The notes under the pieces: generated by a model | Database searches by the model: none | What the model saw: the letters and a program-made list of their open reading frames with translations, nothing else | What the model was told of the DNA's origin: nothing | Assembly: GCF_000970025.1 (NCBI RefSeq) | Contig: NZ_CP009528.1 | Location: forward strand, 2,529,168 to 2,593,167 | Length of the DNA stretch: 64,000 bases | Reading direction: 5' to 3' | From: Methanosarcina barkeri MS | GTDB taxonomy: Archaea > Halobacteriota > Methanosarcinia > Methanosarcinales > Methanosarcinaceae | Shown here: positions 24,176 through 33,383 of the stretch, one piece after another | How positions within the stretch are numbered: the first letter of the stretch is position 1 | Layout: every line of letters begins with the position of its first letter | Made by a program: the position numbers and the translations under genes

Positions 24176-25705
24176 ATGATCCCTATGCATCCTAAAACTC
24201 AACAGATCCTCGAAGTCTTTGAAGAAATCAATAAAATCCCGAGACGTTCAAAGCATGAAGAACAGATTTCAACCTGGCTGCAGGAGTGGGGCCGGTCCAG
24301 AGGTTTTGAGGTAAAAGCCGATTCCTTAAACAATGTGCTTATCAAAGTCCCCGCAACGGCTGGATATGAGAACTCTCCCATGCTTATTCTGCAGGGGCAC
24401 ATGGATATGGTCTGCGAGAAATGTAAAGATTCCGTACACGACTTTTCCAGAGACCCTATAAGATGCATTTACGACGGGGGATGGATGCAAGGAGACGGAA
24501 CTTCCATAGGTGCGGATGATGGGATTGCCCTTGCACTTGGACTGGTGCTGGCAGAAGCAGGGAAGAAAGGAGAAATCGGGCATCCACCACTTGAGTTGCT
24601 TTTTACGGTGGACGAGGAAACAGGTCTGACAGGAGCGAGAGGACTTGAAACTGGCTTTTTTGAAGGAAAAATACTTCTGAACCTTGACTCAGAGGATGAA
24701 GGCATTTTTGTAATAGGATGTGCAGGCGGGCAGAATTCACAGATTACACTTCCTGTTGAGTGGGAACTGCTTGATTTCAAAGAAGAAAATTCATTTGGGT
24801 TCTTCAGGCTCTCGGTTGAAGGACTGGAAGGTGGGCACTCCGGGACTGAAATCAACAAACAACGCGCAAACGGGATACAGTTGCTCTCCCTGGCACTGAA
24901 CAAACTCAGGGGAAAACTTGGGATAGAAAATGTAAGGCTTGTCCTGCTGAACGGGGGCAGTGTTCATAATGCAATTCCCAATACTGCAGAAGCCTTTATT
25001 GCCCTTCACAGGGAAAAACTCGAAAAAGCCGAAGAAGCAATGTCAGATATCAGGCATGCATTTAAAGCTGAATATGCAAAAACTGATCCTGGACTTATTT
25101 TGAATTTTGAAGAAATTAGCAGAGAAATAATTTTTGAAGTTGCAGAAGATAAAATCCTCAGAGAGACAGTGTCTCATGTTCGGGTCTTTTCGCCAGAGAC
25201 CGAAGAAAAACTTATAGAACTGATCCTGGGACTACCGCATGGGGTTTACAGGATGTCGGAGACAATTCATGGGCTTGTCGAAACCTCAAATAATCTTGCA
25301 ACAGTCCGGACAGATGGAAATGAAGTAATAATAATATCAAGCCAGCGCAGTTCAAGCAATCTCAGGCTGGCTGAAATTAGCGGAAAGGGGGAAGCAATCG
25401 CAAAGCTCGCAGGTGCATGGGTTGAACATGAGCCCGGATATCCTGCATGGGAGCCCAACCTGAAATCAGAACTGCTCTTAAAATGCAAGCAAGTTTATAC
25501 CGAGACATTTGGGAAAGAGCCTGAGATTGAAGTGATTCACGCAGGGCTTGAATGCGGAATAATCGGTTCGGCGCATGAAGGTATGGAAATGATTTCTTTC
25601 GGGCCAACGATTAAAGATGCGCATTCTCCTGCTGAAAGGATCTTCATTCCTTCGATTGAGAAAGTCTGGATATTCCTGGAAAACCTGTTTAAAACTTATT
25701 GCTGA
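24176..25705 (+). CDS. pepD: Xaa-His dipeptidase (aminoacyl-histidine dipeptidase), M20 family
   Basis: 509 residues, close to the usual 480-500 of PepD. Metal-site motifs of the M20/PepD family are all visible: GHMDMVCEK (about 83-91), GADDGIALALG, DEETGLTGARG, LNLDSEDEG and, near the end, AHSPAERIFI. The enzyme is a cytoplasmic zinc peptidase that splits dipeptides such as carnosine-like Xaa-His. ATG 24176 and ATG 24185 are both possible; neither has a strong ribosome site. It appears to be a single-gene unit. Confidence 0.93.
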   Translation: MIPMHPKTQQILEVFEEINKIPRRSKHEEQISTWLQEWGRSRGFEVKADSLNNVLIKVPATAGYENSPMLILQGHMDMVCEKCKDSVHDFSRDPIRCIYDGGWMQGDGTSIGADDGIALALGLVLAEAGKKGEIGHPPLELLFTVDEETGLTGARGLETGFFEGKILLNLDSEDEGIFVIGCAGGQNSQITLPVEWELLDFKEENSFGFFRLSVEGLEGGHSGTEINKQRANGIQLLSLALNKLRGKLGIENVRLVLLNGGSVHNAIPNTAEAFIALHREKLEKAEEAMSDIRHAFKAEYAKTDPGLILNFEEISREIIFEVAEDKILRETVSHVRVFSPETEEKLIELILGLPHGVYRMSETIHGLVETSNNLATVRTDGNEVIIISSQRSSSNLRLAEISGKGEAIAKLAGAWVEHEPGYPAWEPNLKSELLLKCKQVYTETFGKEPEIEVIHAGLECGIIGSAHEGMEMISFGPTIKDAHSPAERIFIPSIEKVWIFLENLFKTYC

Positions 25706-25924
25706 CATGGGTTTCTTCAACAGGGACAGGCGCCACATGTGTTTGAAAATCAAGCCTTTTCAAAAAACTGCTTGCCAGCAACCCTTTTAAAAAAAGGCTT
25801 GACCGAAAACCCCAGCAAAAACATAGTCAGCGTGTGGTCAAGCAGCTCAACGGTTCTGGTACAGCCCTTTTCAAAAAAGACTTGAGCAAAAACGTCTCAA
25901 TGTTTGAGGTCTCAATGTTTGCGT
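25706..25924. other. Short intergenic stretch with repeated CAAGCCTTTTCAAAAAA-like strings
   Basis: Three degenerate copies of a cagccttttcaaaaaag-type string, with tcaatgtttgaggtctcaatgtttg behind them, fill the space after pepD. They can pair as weak hairpins and may end pepD transcription. Confidence 0.35.
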
Positions 25925-25985
25925 TTTGAGTACCTTATCCCCGGACCCTATCGGCGTGATCAACCGGCGCAACGGTTGCGTTTAA
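25925..25985 (-). repeat. Orphan copy of the CPBP-gene 3' end (62-bp repeat)
   Basis: Read leftward, this segment codes for NATVAPVDHADRVRG and a TAA stop, the same tail as the CPBP protease gene whose 3' end lies at 30371, 4.4 kb away. It matches the 62-bp units at 30240-30420 with a few substitutions. There is no gene body attached here. Confidence 0.85.
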
Positions 25986-26151
25986 ACCTTAATTTGGCAG
26001 ATTATACTAATTAACACCATGCAAAAAACATGTTTCATTGGCATATCACAGTTATGTAAAATGACAAAAGTCAAAATTGGGTTCTTATAAAAAGGTATGC
26101 AAGTATTCGTAGGCTTGAATCACATCCTTCACAAACTATACATAGCCTGCT

Positions 26152-29100
26152 TCAGAGATCTTCTCTCTGGAAAGAGAAGCGCATGACCTGTGGTGCCCAG
26201 TTAGCTAATACAGTTGCATCTAAATTCAGCCAACTTCCTCCATCATATTTGTCTACCCATGATTTTAGGCGAACCAAATCATGACAAACATTACGTTCTT
26301 CATATATCCAACCGCTTGCTTGACCGTTCCCAGCCTTATCTAATGTGATTTCTTCATCCTTTTCTGTTAAGACTTTGCCTCTGGGAGGCATTTGGTGCGC
26401 TTCCAACACTGCAAGAACTTGGCCAAGGGTACATCCAGTTGATATGGATACTTGCTGGTTGGATGTCATGGTTTGTTCGATCTCGGAACGCTCTGAACGA
26501 AGCTGCTTGAAAAAGTCGCTCGAAATAGTAGGCAATCCGATAAGCACCGCCAACAGAAACAACACTAACTTGAAATCTGCATTGGGTCTGTCTTCCACGA
26601 ACTTCGTCCCTTGGTTCAGTGAGATAGCTTTAATTAGCCGATAAATGTTGACAAAACGCTTTACCGACCGTGGTGTCTGGCCGAGAAGACTACGTAGCTC
26701 GTCCATGAACTGAAGTTCAATTTCCTCAATATCTAGACCTTGGGGCTTCAGGTCTGTATTAGTGTTTAAGTCCAGAAGGCGTTTATTTTCCGAAACTCCC
26801 CAATTCTTGGCTCGTTCTTTGCCATCGACCCTCGCATCGATAGTATCTTTCATGCCTTTTTGACTATTATCTAGCTCTGTTTTGTCATCCACCTCGCTGG
26901 ATGGTACCAAACTATCTGATAATAGACCTTTGACAATATTTATGCGAGCTTTTTCGGGTAAGGGAGGCATCCAAAATGGTATCTGAAAAATCTTTTCTAA
27001 ATAGTCTTGCGGTGAGGCTTGGCGCCCGAAGCTTTTTGAGAGCTCAAAGTCTTCTTGTAGGGTGCTGGCCGAGAGAAGATTTTGATAGTGAGTCTGTAAC
27101 GACTGTGACAACCAGCGGACGTCCACGGCCACGACGACAACGAATAAGGGAAAGGCCAGCAACAAATGTATGGCTTGAAGAACTTGGACAACACGATCTG
27201 GTGGGCATCTATCCAAGTCATCTATGTACAGGACAATGCGGTTGATCAAGTGTTTGTCTTCTTCACTTACCTTCCCCTTGTCCCTTTCAATGAATTCCTT
27301 ATTCTGTTCCTCGATAAGTTGTGACAGCTGTTCAAAGTCGCTACGAATTAGTGCGGCAATACCAAGGTGTTTGCGATAGTCTAGGCTGCACATACGTTCG
27401 TTGATAAAGTCTAGCAACAAGCGTCCAGGAGTGACCTGCTGCAGTTCCTGTTCTAACTCAGCAATCGCACGCTCCTTTTCCTTTTCTTTATTCTTAGCTT
27501 GGTCATATTCTGCCTTCTTTTCATTATACTCACACTCCGCTTCAGTGATCTTCTTGTCGTGCTTTTCAGCTTCAGCACTCCGCCTTGCATCCAGCTTTAT
27601 TCTGATGTCTTCAACCCGTGTCATGGATTCAGATAGCCACATAGTACCTTTCTTGAGCATGATGGTTAAACCGCTTAAGAAAGCTCCCACACTGACCAGT
27701 GCATTGGTGACGGTAGGAAGTTCGCTGATATTATTGAGCACGAAGCTGATGAACGGGCCTATGAGAATGACGACGACTAGAGCTGCGGCCCACTTCCAGC
27801 CATCCCAGCCATGCTCGCGCAGCCGGGTTGTGAGCGCATTGCCTCGCTCCAGCACAACACGAAGTTCATCCGCACTCTGCATTAAATCTGCTGCATTCTT
27901 CATGTCTTTCTTTAAGCCCAGATTTTCTAAGATCTGTTTTTCCTTTTCGTAGTCCGTTAGAGGTATCGTTTTAAGAATGTCTTTAGCCTTCAAGTCAGTA
28001 AGCTTTTGAAGTGCAATGTCGCGCTCTTTCTCAAGTTTGGTAACGCGCTCCTTGGCTTGGTCAAGCTGACTCTTGAGTTCATCCTTACGGGCCTGAGCTT
28101 CTTCCTTTGCACGTCCCTGGATATCAAGTTTCTCGATAATCTCCTGCCGTCGCTGATGTAGTAAGGATGGCTGATCTTCTGATCGTGTCTTCAAGTTACG
28201 GAAGATGTGATCCACCAAGCTCGCCCATAATTCTCCTTCAACGTAGTGCCACGCGTTGAACTCGATTTGAGCTATATACTTGTAGACCGAAATTTCTTTT
28301 TGAGGCTGGTTCGAACGTTGAGCGCCCAATGTAATCGTGTGGATGCGCTGGCGCAGTGATTCCATGAAGAAGCTTTTACCAGAACCCCAGTCACCAAAAA
28401 GACCAATTGCCATTGGGGGTTGCAATGTCTTGGCTGCAATAAGATAGGCGAAAGCATCTACTTCAGAACCTATACCGATGAGATCTCTCTCGGTATGGAT
28501 ATCTGCATTGAACCCGGACACGGCAAAGTGGGCAGGGAGTTGCCCAGGTAGGGCAAAAGAAGCTGGCATAAGCTGAAGCATGTGTAACACAAATTTGGCA
28601 GCATTTTGGGTTGCAATTACTTGCCATTTATTATCATTAGGAGATTTGTCCCCACCCACAAAATCGCTGATAGATTTCACAACGATCCAATCAACTTTGG
28701 ATTCCCGACAGACCTCATACAGCCCAGCGCCTCCAATTTCACCGCCAATAATATCATCACGATTCAAAGTGTTTAAATCTTGATAATAATTGATGTTATC
28801 CAAAATCTTCTCGCTAGATAAAATGGAGCCGAATTTAACTTTATAATTTGATTCATCCCATGAATTGTAGATCTTCTGAAAGCAGTTTAAAAGCCGTGGA
28901 GATGCATCTATTTGATCCCTATGATAGACGGATAATAAGGATCCATCCTTTGTTTTTATTAAGGATCCATCCTTCGTGATTAATCGTTGGGTTTCATAAA
29001 TAATGAGTCGCGTTGAAACCAAAATGTCGCCGATAGATTGATTTTTGGAATTAAAACCAAAAGCTAACCCTACCAGAATCACTGCTGTAGGCGATAAATC

Positions 29101-29322
29101 AAGAATACACTTTCGTAAAAGTGCTTCAGATTCCAATAATCCCAGACCAAGTTTCAATAGAAATACTCTCTTTCTATTGACAACGCCAATGTCGTAGTAT
29201 GTCTGGTCACCAATTAATACAGCTTGAGGCACTTGCCTATTGGAGTCCTGAAACACATCAAAAATCGCTTTGCTTTCGCCTTCAGTTATAGTGATCAACA
29301 AAAAGTCAGCTTTCAGAGTCAT
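26152..29322 (-). CDS. Nucleoside phosphorylase-KAP P-loop NTPase fusion, probable defence protein
   Basis: About 1056 residues from ATG 29322 (AGGA about 10 bases upstream). Residues 1-255 form a PNP/MTA-SAH-nucleosidase fold: VILVGLAFGF, the GGEIGGAGLYEVC ligand-site loop near 195 and VVKSISDFVGG with DNKWQVIATQNAAKF. Next comes a KAP-type NTPase: Walker A GDWGSGKSFF near 310, FNAWHYVEGE near 356, a coiled coil (about 400-450), two transmembrane helices (about 511-531 and 539-557), a second coiled coil, Walker B IVLYIDDLDRCPP near 697 and TPRSVKRFVNIYRL near 900. KAP proteins are membrane-tied STAND-like NTPases. Phosphorylase domains act as effectors in some NLR-like proteins, so an antiphage role is likely by analogy. 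Its codon choice looks less AT-rich than the surrounding DNA. Confidence 0.88.
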   Translation of the reverse strand: MTLKADFLLITITEGESKAIFDVFQDSNRQVPQAVLIGDQTYYDIGVVNRKRVFLLKLGLGLLESEALLRKCILDLSPTAVILVGLAFGFNSKNQSIGDILVSTRLIIYETQRLITKDGSLIKTKDGSLLSVYHRDQIDASPRLLNCFQKIYNSWDESNYKVKFGSILSSEKILDNINYYQDLNTLNRDDIIGGEIGGAGLYEVCRESKVDWIVVKSISDFVGGDKSPNDNKWQVIATQNAAKFVLHMLQLMPASFALPGQLPAHFAVSGFNADIHTERDLIGIGSEVDAFAYLIAAKTLQPPMAIGLFGDWGSGKSFFMESLRQRIHTITLGAQRSNQPQKEISVYKYIAQIEFNAWHYVEGELWASLVDHIFRNLKTRSEDQPSLLHQRRQEIIEKLDIQGRAKEEAQARKDELKSQLDQAKERVTKLEKERDIALQKLTDLKAKDILKTIPLTDYEKEKQILENLGLKKDMKNAADLMQSADELRVVLERGNALTTRLREHGWDGWKWAAALVVVILIGPFISFVLNNISELPTVTNALVSVGAFLSGLTIMLKKGTMWLSESMTRVEDIRIKLDARRSAEAEKHDKKITEAECEYNEKKAEYDQAKNKEKEKERAIAELEQELQQVTPGRLLLDFINERMCSLDYRKHLGIAALIRSDFEQLSQLIEEQNKEFIERDKGKVSEEDKHLINRIVLYIDDLDRCPPDRVVQVLQAIHLLLAFPLFVVVVAVDVRWLSQSLQTHYQNLLSASTLQEDFELSKSFGRQASPQDYLEKIFQIPFWMPPLPEKARINIVKGLLSDSLVPSSEVDDKTELDNSQKGMKDTIDARVDGKERAKNWGVSENKRLLDLNTNTDLKPQGLDIEEIELQFMDELRSLLGQTPRSVKRFVNIYRLIKAISLNQGTKFVEDRPNADFKLVLFLLAVLIGLPTISSDFFKQLRSERSEIEQTMTSNQQVSISTGCTLGQVLAVLEAHQMPPRGKVLTEKDEEITLDKAGNGQASGWIYEERNVCHDLVRLKSWVDKYDGGSWLNLDATVLANWAPQVMRFSFQREDL

Positions 29323-29548
29323 GATCAAATTCCTAATCTAGACAGGGAGTACTTCATTATTACAAGGTTAGCTCGTGGCAGTTCAACGATCATATCTGCT
29401 CTGGATGCAGATTTCGAAGACAATAATTAAAATTTGATATTAAATCATGATTTTTGGATTTCATTTAGGGATATTTTTGTAACATTCTCACTTATATTAA
29501 AGTTTTATGAAAACAGAACGCTAGAAAAGTTTTCTTCTAGAAGTACAC

Positions 29549-29634
29549 TAATGTCGAGTCAACCGCAAAATGTCGTATAAAACCGATTGCAATTATTCGG
29601 AATCATTGAATCTTTGATGATTGACTCGACACTA
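29549..29634. mobile_element. 86-bp MITE-like element with 14-bp inverted ends
   Basis: Ends are taatgtcgagtcaa and ttgactcgacacta, matching at 13 of 14 positions when one is reversed. The inside, tgtcgtataaaaccgattgc and onward, matches the left part of the longer element at 40718-41194. It has no coding capacity. Confidence 0.7.
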
Positions 29635-29801
29635 GCCATCAGCAGATAATAAGTACTCCTACTGTAATTGTAACTTTAGTTACATCCTTAATTTGACAGT
29701 ATAAATTCCATGTATTATGAAATCTCATTTTTTCGTCAAAAATCATTTGACAGTATATAAAAATTGCATAAAAATTACCGTCGATTTGTCGTATTTTCAA
29801 C

Positions 29802-29940
29802 TTAGAGCCTATCCGAAAAGTAGTTACCAGCTATAACTTTTACAAAATGCAATATGAAAAAACCGGAACGGATACTCTGGTCGTATAGATCGATTGTGAC
29901 TTTTCAATATGCATTACGGACTTTTCGGATAGGTTCTTAG
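29802..29940. mobile_element. 139-bp hairpin element with 19-bp inverted ends
   Basis: Ends are ttagagcctatccgaaaag and cttttcggataggttctta (17 of 19 match). Inner sequences aaaatgcaatatgaaaa and ttttcaatatgcatta also pair, so the whole element can fold into one long hairpin. The end sequence resembles that of the 135-bp family at 40916 and 46826. Confidence 0.65.
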
Positions 29941-30235
29941 CGATTCCTATAAAATCGCAATGTAGAATTTTTTGTTTAATTATAGTGATTTTGGGATATA
30001 ATATTTTTATTTAGTAGACGATATTTTGCTCATTGTACATGCAATCCGTCAAATTCAATACAAAAATTTGATCAAAAATCAAAAAAATGACCCTTAAGAG
30101 AAGAAGAATAATCTGTCAAATAGAATCACAAAAACTGGGTAAAAAATTTGTTGATATGATATTACTTCTTCATCCCTATCAAATATGAAAATACCCTTTC
30201 AATATAAAAATTAAACTGTCAAATTAGGGTTTGAG
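29941..30235. other. AT-rich spacer, nothing recognised
   Basis: No gene. The phrase tttgacagt/aactgtcaaat recurs several times between 29690 and 30230, in the style of degraded short elements. Confidence 0.4.
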
Positions 30236-30239
30236 TTTT

Positions 30240-30417
30240 GAGTATCTTATCCCCGAACCCTATCGGCGTGATCAACCAGCGCAACGGCTGTGTTTGAATT
30301 TGAGTATCTTATCCCCGAACCCTATCGGCGTGATCAACCAGCGCAACGGCTGTGTTTGAATTTGAGTATCTTATCCCCGAACCCTATCGGCGTGATCAAC
30401 CGGCGCAACGGTTGATC
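30240..30417. repeat. 62-bp tandem repeat, three units, made from the 3' end of the CPBP gene
   Basis: Units begin at 30240, 30302 and 30364, exactly 62 bases apart. The first two are identical; the third is the true gene end and diverges after cggcgcaacggttgatc. Each unit, read leftward, contains the codons for VDHADRVRG and the TAA stop. Confidence 0.95.
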
Positions 30418-31123
30418 GAAAGCCCCGTAATAGCCAGATACCATATAAGAATAGAATAAATGAAAAGAGTAACAACACCAGCCCTGCAGAGGAACCTGTC
30501 AGAAATGCCAGACAGTCCCACAGCCAGTGAATGATGATTAAAGGAATTACAGTGTCGAGGCGGACCCGCAAGGCTACTGCCCAGACCCCAAACATACCTG
30601 CAAAAAAAGCCTGGAATACGCTTGCATTGAAGTCTCCGGTTATTAAGCTGTTTAACGTATGAACCGAACCGAAGACAATTGCCGTGATCCACACTGCACG
30701 CCAGATTCCAAATGACGATGAAGCCCCATGAAATAATACACCTCGAAACATCAACTCTTCACTGATGCCTACCATCAGGGTGTTTATAATTACAATTAAG
30801 AGTATCCGGATTGGCGGCAGGCCTGTAAATAAAACTATCACTAGCATGATGAAAAGGAACAGAGCCGGTAGCCATAATAGGCGCAAATCATGTAAATCAT
30901 TCGGACCTTTCCACCCGACTTTATCCCACCAGTCAAAATAGGTAATTACCACAGACAAAAAAACTATTGCAGTAAGCACTCCATAAATAAGCTGACTTTT
31001 AACCAGTTCATCAAGTTGAGTGGGCTGGCCTTTAACCTGCAGCAGTCCTCCCCCCACAACAACAATCAGCCAGACAGCAAAAATTCCCAGTGAAGTAGGC
31101 CAGGGTTTTCTTGATGTATTCAT
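30371..31123 (-). CDS. CPBP-family intramembrane metalloprotease (Abi/CAAX protease)
   Basis: About 250 residues from ATG 31123, chosen because TTGGAG lies 11 bases upstream and because the extra residues from 31219 are polar and repetitive. There are about eight hydrophobic segments. Family motifs are present: EELMFRG (the Glu-Glu-x3-Arg motif) at about 123, FGSVHTLN (Phe-x3-His) and a later HWLWD. Members are membrane proteases that process prenylated or bacteriocin-type substrates; the substrate here is unknown. The last 14 codons belong to the 62-bp repeat, whose extra copies lie downstream. Confidence 0.88.
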   Translation of the reverse strand: MNTSRKPWPTSLGIFAVWLIVVVGGGLLQVKGQPTQLDELVKSQLIYGVLTAIVFLSVVITYFDWWDKVGWKGPNDLHDLRLLWLPALFLFIMLVIVLFTGLPPIRILLIVIINTLMVGISEELMFRGVLFHGASSSFGIWRAVWITAIVFGSVHTLNSLITGDFNASVFQAFFAGMFGVWAVALRVRLDTVIPLIIIHWLWDCLAFLTGSSAGLVLLLFSFILFLYGIWLLRGFRSTVAPVDHADRVRG

Positions 31124-31521
31124 CTTTGTTTTCTCCAATCTAATTCGGCAATATTCGTTTCTTTTCGGAAGGTTGGAACTGCCACCAGGGTTATTACTAC
31201 CACTATTACCGGAGTGCAATATTCACCGGTATCGAGTTTCTATCAGACTGGTGACGTCTCATCTAAAGTCCAGCCAGTAGATTCCTGAATCTCAAAAATT
31301 GCACAACCTTACTTAATTATTAGTCATGCTTCATCGGTTAAGCATTAAATCCCATCTCCTGTATATGCTTTATATTAATATTATAATCTTTGAATCTATG
31401 TTTCCTCGTTTCCCACCTGCTCTTTAAGACTCTCTTCGGGAAATGTTTTCCGAAGAGTGGTTAATGAGTATATATGAAAGTCAAGCATTAGATCCGCATG
31501 TAAACAGAGAAAGGTTTAGAA

Positions 31522-31711
31522 ATGAATGGTTTGAATAAAAAAGGAAAGAATTGGGTTCAAAAAAAGTAACAGTGGACGAAAATGAATGTTTTAAATAAAA
31601 AAAAGGAAATAATTGGGTTCAAAAAAAGTAACAGTGGACGAAAATGAATGTTTTAAATAAAAAAAATGGAAGAATTAGGTTCAAAAAGAGTAAACAGGGA
31701 CGAAAACGAAT
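31522..31711. repeat. 60-62-bp tandem repeat, three units
   Basis: Units begin with atgaatg at 31522, 31582 and 31644 and continue gtttgaataaaaaaggaa, gaattgggttcaaaaa, agtaacagtggacgaaa. The array lies 170 bases before the 250-aa gene and after the divergent CPBP gene. The rest of 31124-31880 is AT-rich and otherwise empty. Confidence 0.9.
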
Positions 31712-31880: not shown

Positions 31881-32633
31881 ATGTTCTCACTGAACGAACA
31901 AAAGGCTATTGAACTTGGAGAATCTGGAGAACGAGCAATAAGAGAACAGAATGAATATGATGCACTCCAATATGCTGAGTACCTCCGGGAATTAGGACAT
32001 GAGTTGCTCGAAGGTAATTTAGAGAAGGATTTAAAGAGAGTTATTATCTCACTCAGAAACATTGGTAACAGAGCTGTCCAGAAAAAGATGGATAATGTTG
32101 CGTCCACGGCTCTTAATGAGCTTAAGTATCTTTCTGATATTGCACTCGATAAGAATTTCTCAAACGCGATGTGGTCTTTTTCAAAAGCTGCACAGGAGAT
32201 AGGAAAAGGAGCAGTACAGGTCGAGATGCTCGAACCTGCAAAACTTGCGCTTGACACGCTTAAAATGATAGGGATGGGCGCAGTTGAGAAGAAAATGGAA
32301 GTTGTAACCCTCTGGACAACCATGTCACTTGAGGAAATGGCTTATCTTGCAAATAAGCAGCAACTTGAAGATTTCACTAAGGAAGCAAAAGAGGCTAGAG
32401 AAGAAATTATAGAATACTCCGAAGCCTCAGGGTTTGTTACAAAGGAACAGATTGAAAAATACCCACAGCTTATCGCCCAAACCGTAAGTCAATTCTCAGA
32501 GCTTCGGAATCTACAGCCTGCAGGTTATGAGACCAAGCCTAATGAGGAATTCACAGAAGAGGAATTCTTTGAGGAAGAGGTAGAAGGGGAAGAGCAGGAG
32601 CCTGAAACTGAGGCCGCCAAAAAGGAAAAGTAA
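31881..32633 (+). CDS. Conserved helical protein with acidic tail, function unknown
   Basis: 250 residues from ATG 31881, preceded by GGAAAGGGG. No signal or membrane segment, so it is cytoplasmic. Residues 1-200 are almost all amphipathic helices in pairs of about 35-40 residues, with recurring patterns such as RNIGNRAVQKKMDNVAST, QEIGKGAVQVEMLEPAK and KMIGMGAVEKKMEVVT. This is a HEAT-like or TPR-like repeat in which each unit carries Ile-Gly-x-x-Ala-Val. The last 30 residues are Glu-rich (EEEFFEEEVEGEEQE). It likely binds a partner. It is convergent with the trp operon. Confidence 0.75.
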   Translation: MFSLNEQKAIELGESGERAIREQNEYDALQYAEYLRELGHELLEGNLEKDLKRVIISLRNIGNRAVQKKMDNVASTALNELKYLSDIALDKNFSNAMWSFSKAAQEIGKGAVQVEMLEPAKLALDTLKMIGMGAVEKKMEVVTLWTTMSLEEMAYLANKQQLEDFTKEAKEAREEIIEYSEASGFVTKEQIEKYPQLIAQTVSQFSELRNLQPAGYETKPNEEFTEEEFFEEEVEGEEQEPETEAAKKEK

Positions 32634-32698
32634 CCTGATAACCAGAAAAATGAGACTGTTAATTAGAAAATAATTTCTCTGGAAAAATTTCTGGCTGT

Positions 32699-32821
32699 TT
32701 ACACAGGCGTATGCCTTTTTTCATAATATTTCTGGTCGCTTACACAACCGAATGTCTTTTTTCATAATATTTCGGGCTGCTTACACAGCCGGATGCTTTT
32801 TTTTATAATTTTTGGAAATCT
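32699..32821. repeat. 41-bp tandem repeat, three units, made from the 3' end of trpG
   Basis: The string ttacaca-cc-atg-cttttttt recurs at 32699, 32740 and 32781, exactly 41 bases apart. The last unit holds the true trpG stop codon (complement of tta at 32781) and its final codons. The two downstream units are diverged copies. Confidence 0.9.
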
Positions 32822-33383
32822 CCAGAAAGCTTTCTATTATTTTCAGGCCATTGGGAGTAAGTACGGATTCGGGGTGGAACTGCAAGCCGTAGATTGGATA
32901 CTTTACATGCTCCACTGCCATAATGCTCCCGTCCTCAGCCCTGGCAGTAACTTTTATCCCGGGTGCAGGTTCCCCAATCTCAAGTGAATGATAACGGCCT
33001 GCTTCGAATGGGCCCTCAAAGGCTGAAAACAATGCAGAGTCATCATGCAGAATCTTCGAACTTTTTCCATGCACTGGGCCGACCTTGCTTCTTCGAACGA
33101 CTCCGCCGAAAGCCACGTTGATTGCCTGGTGTCCAAGGCAGACTCCAAGAAGAGGAATTTCCCTACCCATTTCCCTGATTATGTCCAGGCAATTTCCTAT
33201 ATCCCTGGGGTCTGAAGGATTACCCGGACCCGGCGAAATAACCAGAGCATCAGGTTTAATCTCCCTGAGTTCTTCCAGGGAAACCGTATTGGGAAGTACC
33301 AGAGTATCTTTTTCGAAATAAGAGATATAATCTACAAGATTCCATACAAAGGAATCCTTGTTGTTTATGAAAACCACCTTCAC
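32781..33383 (-). CDS. trpG: Anthranilate synthase glutamine amidotransferase subunit
   Basis: 200 residues, a full-length class I glutamine amidotransferase. The active-site nucleophile is in GVCLGHQ (about 80-86) and the His-Glu pair in LQFHPES (about 172). ISPGPGNPSDP is the glutamine-site loop. It supplies ammonia to TrpE for making anthranilate from chorismate. It is the last gene of the leftward trp operon, 167 bases after trpE. Its 3' end is repeated twice downstream. Confidence 0.96.
   Translation of the reverse strand: MKVVFINNKDSFVWNLVDYISYFEKDTLVLPNTVSLEELREIKPDALVISPGPGNPSDPRDIGNCLDIIREMGREIPLLGVCLGHQAINVAFGGVVRRSKVGPVHGKSSKILHDDSALFSAFEGPFEAGRYHSLEIGEPAPGIKVTARAEDGSIMAVEHVKYPIYGLQFHPESVLTPNGLKIIESFLEISKNYKKKHPAV

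Follow-up and report, generated by a model that had tools for sequence, protein, structure and literature searches.

The window analysed here, 64,000 nucleotides of Methanosarcina barkeri MS, contains a gene for a CPBP-type membrane protease (PF02517 match at E 2e-15) that ends in a tandem array of 62-bp units. The protein is 252 residues long counted from an ATG (the open reading frame list starts at a TTG further up), and its C terminus, STVAPVDHADRVRG, consists of 14 repeat codons followed by TAA. Beyond the array lies a 4.2-kb segment carrying a gene with PNP and KAP domains (the KAP/PNP gene), and beyond that further repeat copies and a pepD-type gene (Table 1).

Table 1 Features around the end of the CPBP gene, in window coordinates; M1 to M3 are the element modules defined in the text.
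Feature	Position	Strand	Evidence
pepD-type gene (beta-Ala-His dipeptidase family TIGR01893), convergent to CPBP in relatives	24176..25705	+	profile, locus comparison
Short-form element copy adjoining the full one (M1+M3, M2 mostly missing)	25761..25855	-	profile
Full-length fourth element copy (M1+M2+M3), pepD side of insert	25860..25978	-	genome search, profile
4,243-bp segment with inverted MITE-like ends CCTTAATTTGGCAG / CTGTCAAATTAGGG and flanks TTTAAA / TTTGAG	25987..30229		relatives without segment, end comparison
PNP/UDP-phosphorylase domain and KAP NTPase gene inside insert	26152..29328	-	Pfam, profiles
Diverged MITE-family copy (544 bp; ~395 bp elsewhere in genome)	29686..30229		repeat search, genome search
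Array unit 3; truncated by insert near end of M2	30229..30290	-	TRF; profile match positions 2 to 67
Array unit 2	30291..30352	-	repeat search
Array unit 1 (M1+M2; last CPBP codons and TAA stop)	30353..30414	-	sequence, repeat search
CPBP-type (Rce1-like, PF02517) membrane protease gene, last 14 codons element-derived	30371..31129	-	Pfam, ORF list, tail comparison

TRF delimits the array at 30229–30411 (period 62, 2.9 copies, 97% matches, score 343), and a repeat search finds three in-register copies at spacings of 62 and 62, with plus-strand copies 1 and 2 identical and copy 3 at 85%. Every unit contains, on the minus strand, GTTGATCACGCCGATAGGGTTCGGGGATAA, which encodes VDHADRVRG and a stop, and this is all that the three units have in common. 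The first hairpin reads CAGCCG...CGCTGG in units 2 and 3 and CAACCG...CGCCGG in the gene-proximal unit. The preliminary description of this DNA had reported three units at 62-bp spacing, each with VDHADRVRG and TAA, and a gene whose last 14 codons are the repeat, all of which is borne out here. It had also proposed that the gene end itself was amplified downstream. The units are indeed local tandem duplicates that hold the last codons and the stop, but the gene end is not their source, the unit being part of a dispersed element described below.

The units abut directly, with no CRISPR-type spacers in the array, and in one register two entire units share the same 62-bp sequence, which rules out a CRISPR array. 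A search of the whole window against Rfam 15 likewise identified no described RNA family at the gathering score.

The 4,243-bp segment splits the array, leaving three units on the CPBP side and one full copy on the pepD side, ~4.25 kb away and beyond the coordinates of the preliminary description. In nine relatives (G023, G016, G001, G009, G022, G020, G014, G039 and G041) CPBP and pepD are on the same short locus and the segment is missing between them, the gap in G020 containing masked bases. The fetched locus of G010 has no pepD match, and the adjacency check left out G017 and G044. The KAP/PNP gene is the only long open reading frame in the insert, two shorter ones having no Pfam match. It shows partial similarity to the anti-phage ATPases QatA and PifA and to a PN-superfamily effector profile, and scores 79.7 bits against the QatA equivalog, for which the cut-off is 600. 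A search of 29 other Methanosarcina genomes found no close full-length relative of it; G016, G014 and G017 have the best matches, all partial.

The ends of the insert match those of a MITE family of ~395 bp that has five strong other copies, for three of which (L108, L109 and L110) both ends were fetched. Terminal inverted repeats are present in these three and in the window insert (25987/30229), where the ends match at 12 of 14 bases by eye and at 16 of 24 when computed. The 6-bp duplications flanking the family copies are perfect in L108 and L110 (TTACAA and ATAAAA) and agree at five of six positions in L109. The flanks of the window insert agree at four of six positions, and those of the 544-bp copy alone at three of six (by eye); the former are possibly a decayed 6-bp target duplication. 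Two further MITE-like inverted-repeat stretches lie within the AT-rich part of the insert. That at 29548–29635 has 15-bp inverted ends and resembles DNA immediately upstream of the G022 CPBP gene, and that at 29801–29940 (~140 bp, 21-bp inverted ends) is nested in the 544-bp MITE copy.

Two other tandem arrays occur nearby. One, on the minus strand at 32687–32813, has 3.1 copies of a 41-bp unit and starts inside the 3′ end of a glutamine amidotransferase gene (32781–33383; PF00117), which we take to be trpG-like. Its units consist of A-rich codons followed by a hairpin such as GGCTG-TGTAA-GCAGCC (recognized by eye) with the stop codon in the loop. Unlike the CPBP-side element, the 41-bp units have no other strong match in the genome, and this array may be a true gene-end amplification. 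The other, at 31520–31711, is AT-rich and has a 62-bp period and 3.1 copies; it lies 1.1 kb from the CPBP-side array, differs from it in sequence and sits upstream of an open reading frame at 31881–32633.

A dispersed modular element in Methanosarcina

The 62-bp unit, M1+M2, is the first 62 bp of a dispersed element of ~104 bp. M1 comprises the hairpin CAACCG-TTGCGC-CGGTTG and, after it, ATCACGCC; M2 is a conserved linker, GATAGGGTTTGGGGATAAGG...CTCAAACTCAAACG; and M3 is a second hairpin, CAAGCCTTTT-TTG-AAAAGGCTTG. Alignment of copies also reveals short forms without most of M2.

The element is dispersed through the genome. A 197-bp query finds 34 places at E<0.001, including the array itself, and the best other place has an E value of 1e-35, so the match of the array is not a matter of chance. 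At E<=10 the array has 45 places in its own genome and a single unit with flank has 49, and a covariance model gives at least 81 element matches. A tandem duplication derived from the gene is thereby rejected, since the unit, far from being confined to CPBP and its homologues, is dispersed genome-wide. Locus L002 holds another array of 62-bp units, in which the two complete units match each other at 62 of 62 positions and agree with the window units at 48–54 of 62 positions, ungapped. The separate existence of this array indicates that M1+M2 was amplified locally more than once.

The element is also restricted to part of the genus. Among 30 Methanosarcina genomes, that of the window included, 13 have 52–128 matches, four have 1–3 and 13 have none, where counts include short forms and, at most 132 candidates being scored per genome, the high ones may be lower bounds. 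In a class-level sample of 199 genomes from 37 genera, searched with stricter filters, just one other genus has a match, a single weak one, and an exact-pattern search of named genomes returned 25 stretches, all from Methanosarcina. No description of the element was found among the matches listed in the open-licence literature, by title and start of abstract.

Both hairpins covary. When 36 copies from the window genome and others are aligned, 95.3% of the hairpin cells are paired. Both sides are altered in 19 cells, where shuffles give 5.6 and 0 of 500 are as high; many rows come from the exact-pattern search, which fixes part of M1 and M2, and kinship of the copies inflates these counts. Unconstrained RNAalifold predicts the M3 hairpin and pairs M1 otherwise, with a covariation term that is slightly unfavourable overall (+0.41).

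Copies lie between genes, with none of 50 element matches falling inside genes called by a crude custom gene caller. The two ends of the 104-bp element are different hairpins, M1 and M3, and not terminal inverted repeats such as a MITE has. Nor was a clean target duplication found at the two loci examined. At L007, the one usable empty-site comparison, with G039 and G013, gives a flanking repeat of 17–18 bp that is entangled with another repeat family. At L023, several species have the element at the same place with differing module content and others lack it, which shows turnover in place. Near L007, as seen in L142 (G000) against L143 (G039), the element adjoins another dispersed repeat, of CCCTCTTGAGCGAAGCGAAAAGGGCTTCG type, which matches many Methanosarcina genomes, among them some that lack the 104-bp element.

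CPBP tails among orthologues

We compared the CPBP gene end with that of each genome's best match of at least 50% identity, which gives 12 genomes besides the window; the G044 match spans just 43 residues, and second matches in G010 and G017 (L056, L057, L063–L065 and one without a locus) were left out of the count, as were weaker matches elsewhere. A fusion junction is present in 5 of the 12 and absent from 7. The gap between CPBP and pepD holds the element in some species and not in others, and the tail is changed wherever the element adjoins CPBP. Element-coded tails occur in the window genome, G039 (RTTAASVHVNRVRE, from a decayed copy), G023 (STVAPVDHADRVWE) and G016 (STVAPVNQNRCAS). In G001 the stop falls exactly at the junction of gene and element, and in G020 the tail, STVAPFN, runs into masked bases, with most of the junction masked and two weak M1 pieces found by the element profile (E 0.025 and 0.74).

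Tails not coded by the element are RNYRHGKVDLQG in G009, RNCRHSRLDLQGELSLSG in G022, RKYLHSNVRLAEEVSLR in G014, RKYRHGKVNLQG... in G041 and RDYRQGKGSLQE... in G044; G010 stops at RNY, and G017 is divergent. A tail of the YRHGKVxLQG type recurs in several orthologues without the element at the site. The fetched CPBP loci of G022, G014, G010, G017, G041 and G044 contain no match to the element profile at E<=1, and in G009 the profile matches lie past the native CPBP stop (position judged by eye). A profile check of the loci thus finds an element-coded tail solely where the element adjoins the gene. Because orthologues without the element have other tails and the element tail occurs only beside the element, the comparison indicates that the repeat preceded the tail and that the element captured the CPBP gene end. 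This is the order of events that the preliminary description had named as the one that would overturn its own.

That description had also suggested counting units in related strains. Among genomes with a readable junction, the 62-bp array at the CPBP locus is particular to the window genome. G039, whose CPBP is the most similar of those found (90%), has a single decayed element copy and neither array nor insert at this locus. G023, G016 and G001 have no 62-bp M1+M2 array there either, and G016 and G001 carry extra M1 pieces. A CPBP tree, built without G039, G041 and G044, has low resolution, with stars on 1 of its 7 inner branches, so one fusion event and several fit it equally. The tail sequence differs among species, which disfavours a selected role, and we consider the tail most probably a by-product that is tolerated.

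Searching 116 distinct element copies in the fetched loci for further captures of gene tails gave five rows, three of which are the CPBP locus in three genomes, with L100 and L140 as weak candidates. Separately, all four CPBP-like frames in G010 (L056, L064, L065 and L044) contain internal TGA codons, and three contain TAG as well; they may be pseudogenes or reflect codon reassignment.

Origin and role of the array

The account that we consider highly probable treats the array as M1+M2 of a non-autonomous modular repeat of ~104 bp. The element would have arrived in the gap past the CPBP stop, as in present-day G009. The last native codons and the stop would then have been lost in a deletion, perhaps between TCGA microhomologies, with the result that translation entered M1 and ended at the first in-frame TAA in M2. 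We infer this deletion from the G009 sequence, in which TCGA occurs both ahead of the last native codons and where the element DNA begins; loss of the DNA between the two would yield the fused form. In the window lineage, M1+M2 would subsequently have been amplified by slippage or unequal recombination. Finally, the segment with MITE-type ends and the KAP/PNP gene would have been inserted; we favour a junction between array units as its target, leaving the three units beside CPBP and the full copy beside pepD. On this account the altered tail is a by-product, and the element itself is most likely a selfish intergenic repeat that is maintained through recombination and may incidentally affect mRNA 3′ ends. 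Its spread may be due to gene conversion or recombination as well as to transposition by some enzyme.

Three other origins can be weighed against the same data. That the native 3′ end of CPBP was the source and was amplified in tandem would explain why the units are local duplicates holding the last codons and stop of the gene. The same sequence stands beside other DNA throughout the genome, however, and the tail differs in orthologues that have no element at the site; together these rule out a gene-end origin, which we find scarcely credible. A long target or attachment duplication of 62 bp, created as the KAP island integrated, would account for M1+M2 lying in the same orientation on both sides of the insert. 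Yet three units on one side, together with the insert-free array at L002, better fit a tandem duplication that came before, and both the MITE-type inverted repeats at the insert ends and the lack of any second long open reading frame or of Pfam matches in two of the shorter ones speak against integration of this kind, which is in our view quite improbable. Bacterial REP pairs consist of two hairpins set apart from each other and lack a terminal inverted repeat. The element shares this layout, and its hairpins might accordingly be acted on by a Y1/HUH transposase (IS200-like or RAYT). But Y1 transposase counts in the 30 genomes, in which the RAYT subfamily is pooled with other Y1 genes, do not follow element counts: the carriers G013 and G020 have 0 Y1 genes, and the non-carriers G041 and G010 have 79 and 42. 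Mobilization by Y1 or RAYT enzymes is rejected for want of this correlation and has, we judge, a slim chance of being correct.

A further possibility concerns role and not origin, namely that the element is a functional structured 3′-UTR or terminator cassette that is retained past genes for the effect of its hairpins and U-tracts on mRNA 3′ ends, with the array tuning dosage. It would fit the covariation of the hairpins and the folding of the single-copy G023 element (z -3.55) and of L007 with flank (z -2.49), both better than shuffles, as well as the retention of the element at one site (L023) by several species. Part of the array gives z -1.98, and against the cassette the folding of the pepD-side copy does not surpass that of shuffles (z -0.29). 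Raw placement of 54 clusters also leans towards it, with 12 in convergent, 29 in tandem and 4 in divergent gaps and 9 at a locus edge. However, in a census of gaps of at least 60 bp in 25 named loci and the window, using the crude gene caller, convergent, tandem and divergent gaps number 7, 14 and 3 with the element and 15, 66 and 15 without it, and the convergent over divergent bias is not significant (Fisher p 0.46). This control removes a terminator role as argued from position, and such placement does not separate selfish from functional readings. A terminator scan of 25600–31300 found one site, outside the array, against a shuffled mean of 4.9, a result with little bearing on archaeal U-tracts as the scan targets bacterial-type terminators. 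Copies are moreover reshuffled among species, and the 13 element-free genomes of the genus also count against a cassette, which we regard as rather unlikely. Somewhat less likely again is a combined reading, in which a clade-specific structured nucleic-acid element has a selected role at mRNA 3′ ends, its tandem arrays receive cargo, the defence-like KAP/PNP gene being an example, and the remodelling of gene ends is incidental.

Comparison with known repeats

At the CPBP locus, the replacement of a conserved archaeal gene's C terminus by a dispersed repeat can be traced. Sister species supply the intermediates: a native tail, an element past the native stop, a fused tail, and a fused tail with array and cargo insertion. 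The locus also illustrates how a reading based on a single genome can invert the direction of events, and the element family is a candidate for testing the effect of archaeal repeat hairpins on transcript ends.

REP and BIME sequences are short palindromic modules that occur between genes in varying order and number. The Methanosarcina element, also made of short palindromes in a varying, modular and intergenic arrangement, resembles them in this arrangement and differs in that it does not track Y1 (RAYT) transposases. Suyama et al. (2005) reportedly described repetitive DNA fused into archaeal protein genes in Methanocaldococcus. The parallel, drawn from the citation of that work, is that of an archaeal repeat with coding potential becoming part of a protein gene, and the difference lies in the genus. 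Fusion of archaeal repeats into genes is cited in PMC2229807.

Archaeal MITEs, as described in PMC2229807, resemble the 395-bp family and the insert ends in their inverted ends and in the 6-bp duplication, which is perfect in two of the three complete copies; the 104-bp element does not fit them. The enterobacterial repeats ERIC, IRU, RU-1 and RU-2 have terminal inverted repeats and target duplications, according to PMC2229807 and PMC2759123. The Methanosarcina element differs from them in its two separate hairpins, its archaeal host and its lack of a terminal inverted repeat or demonstrated target duplication, and is like them in being a small dispersed intergenic repeat with hairpins. According to PMC2759123, RU-1 replaces a stop codon and adds a C-terminal tail in ECA3499.
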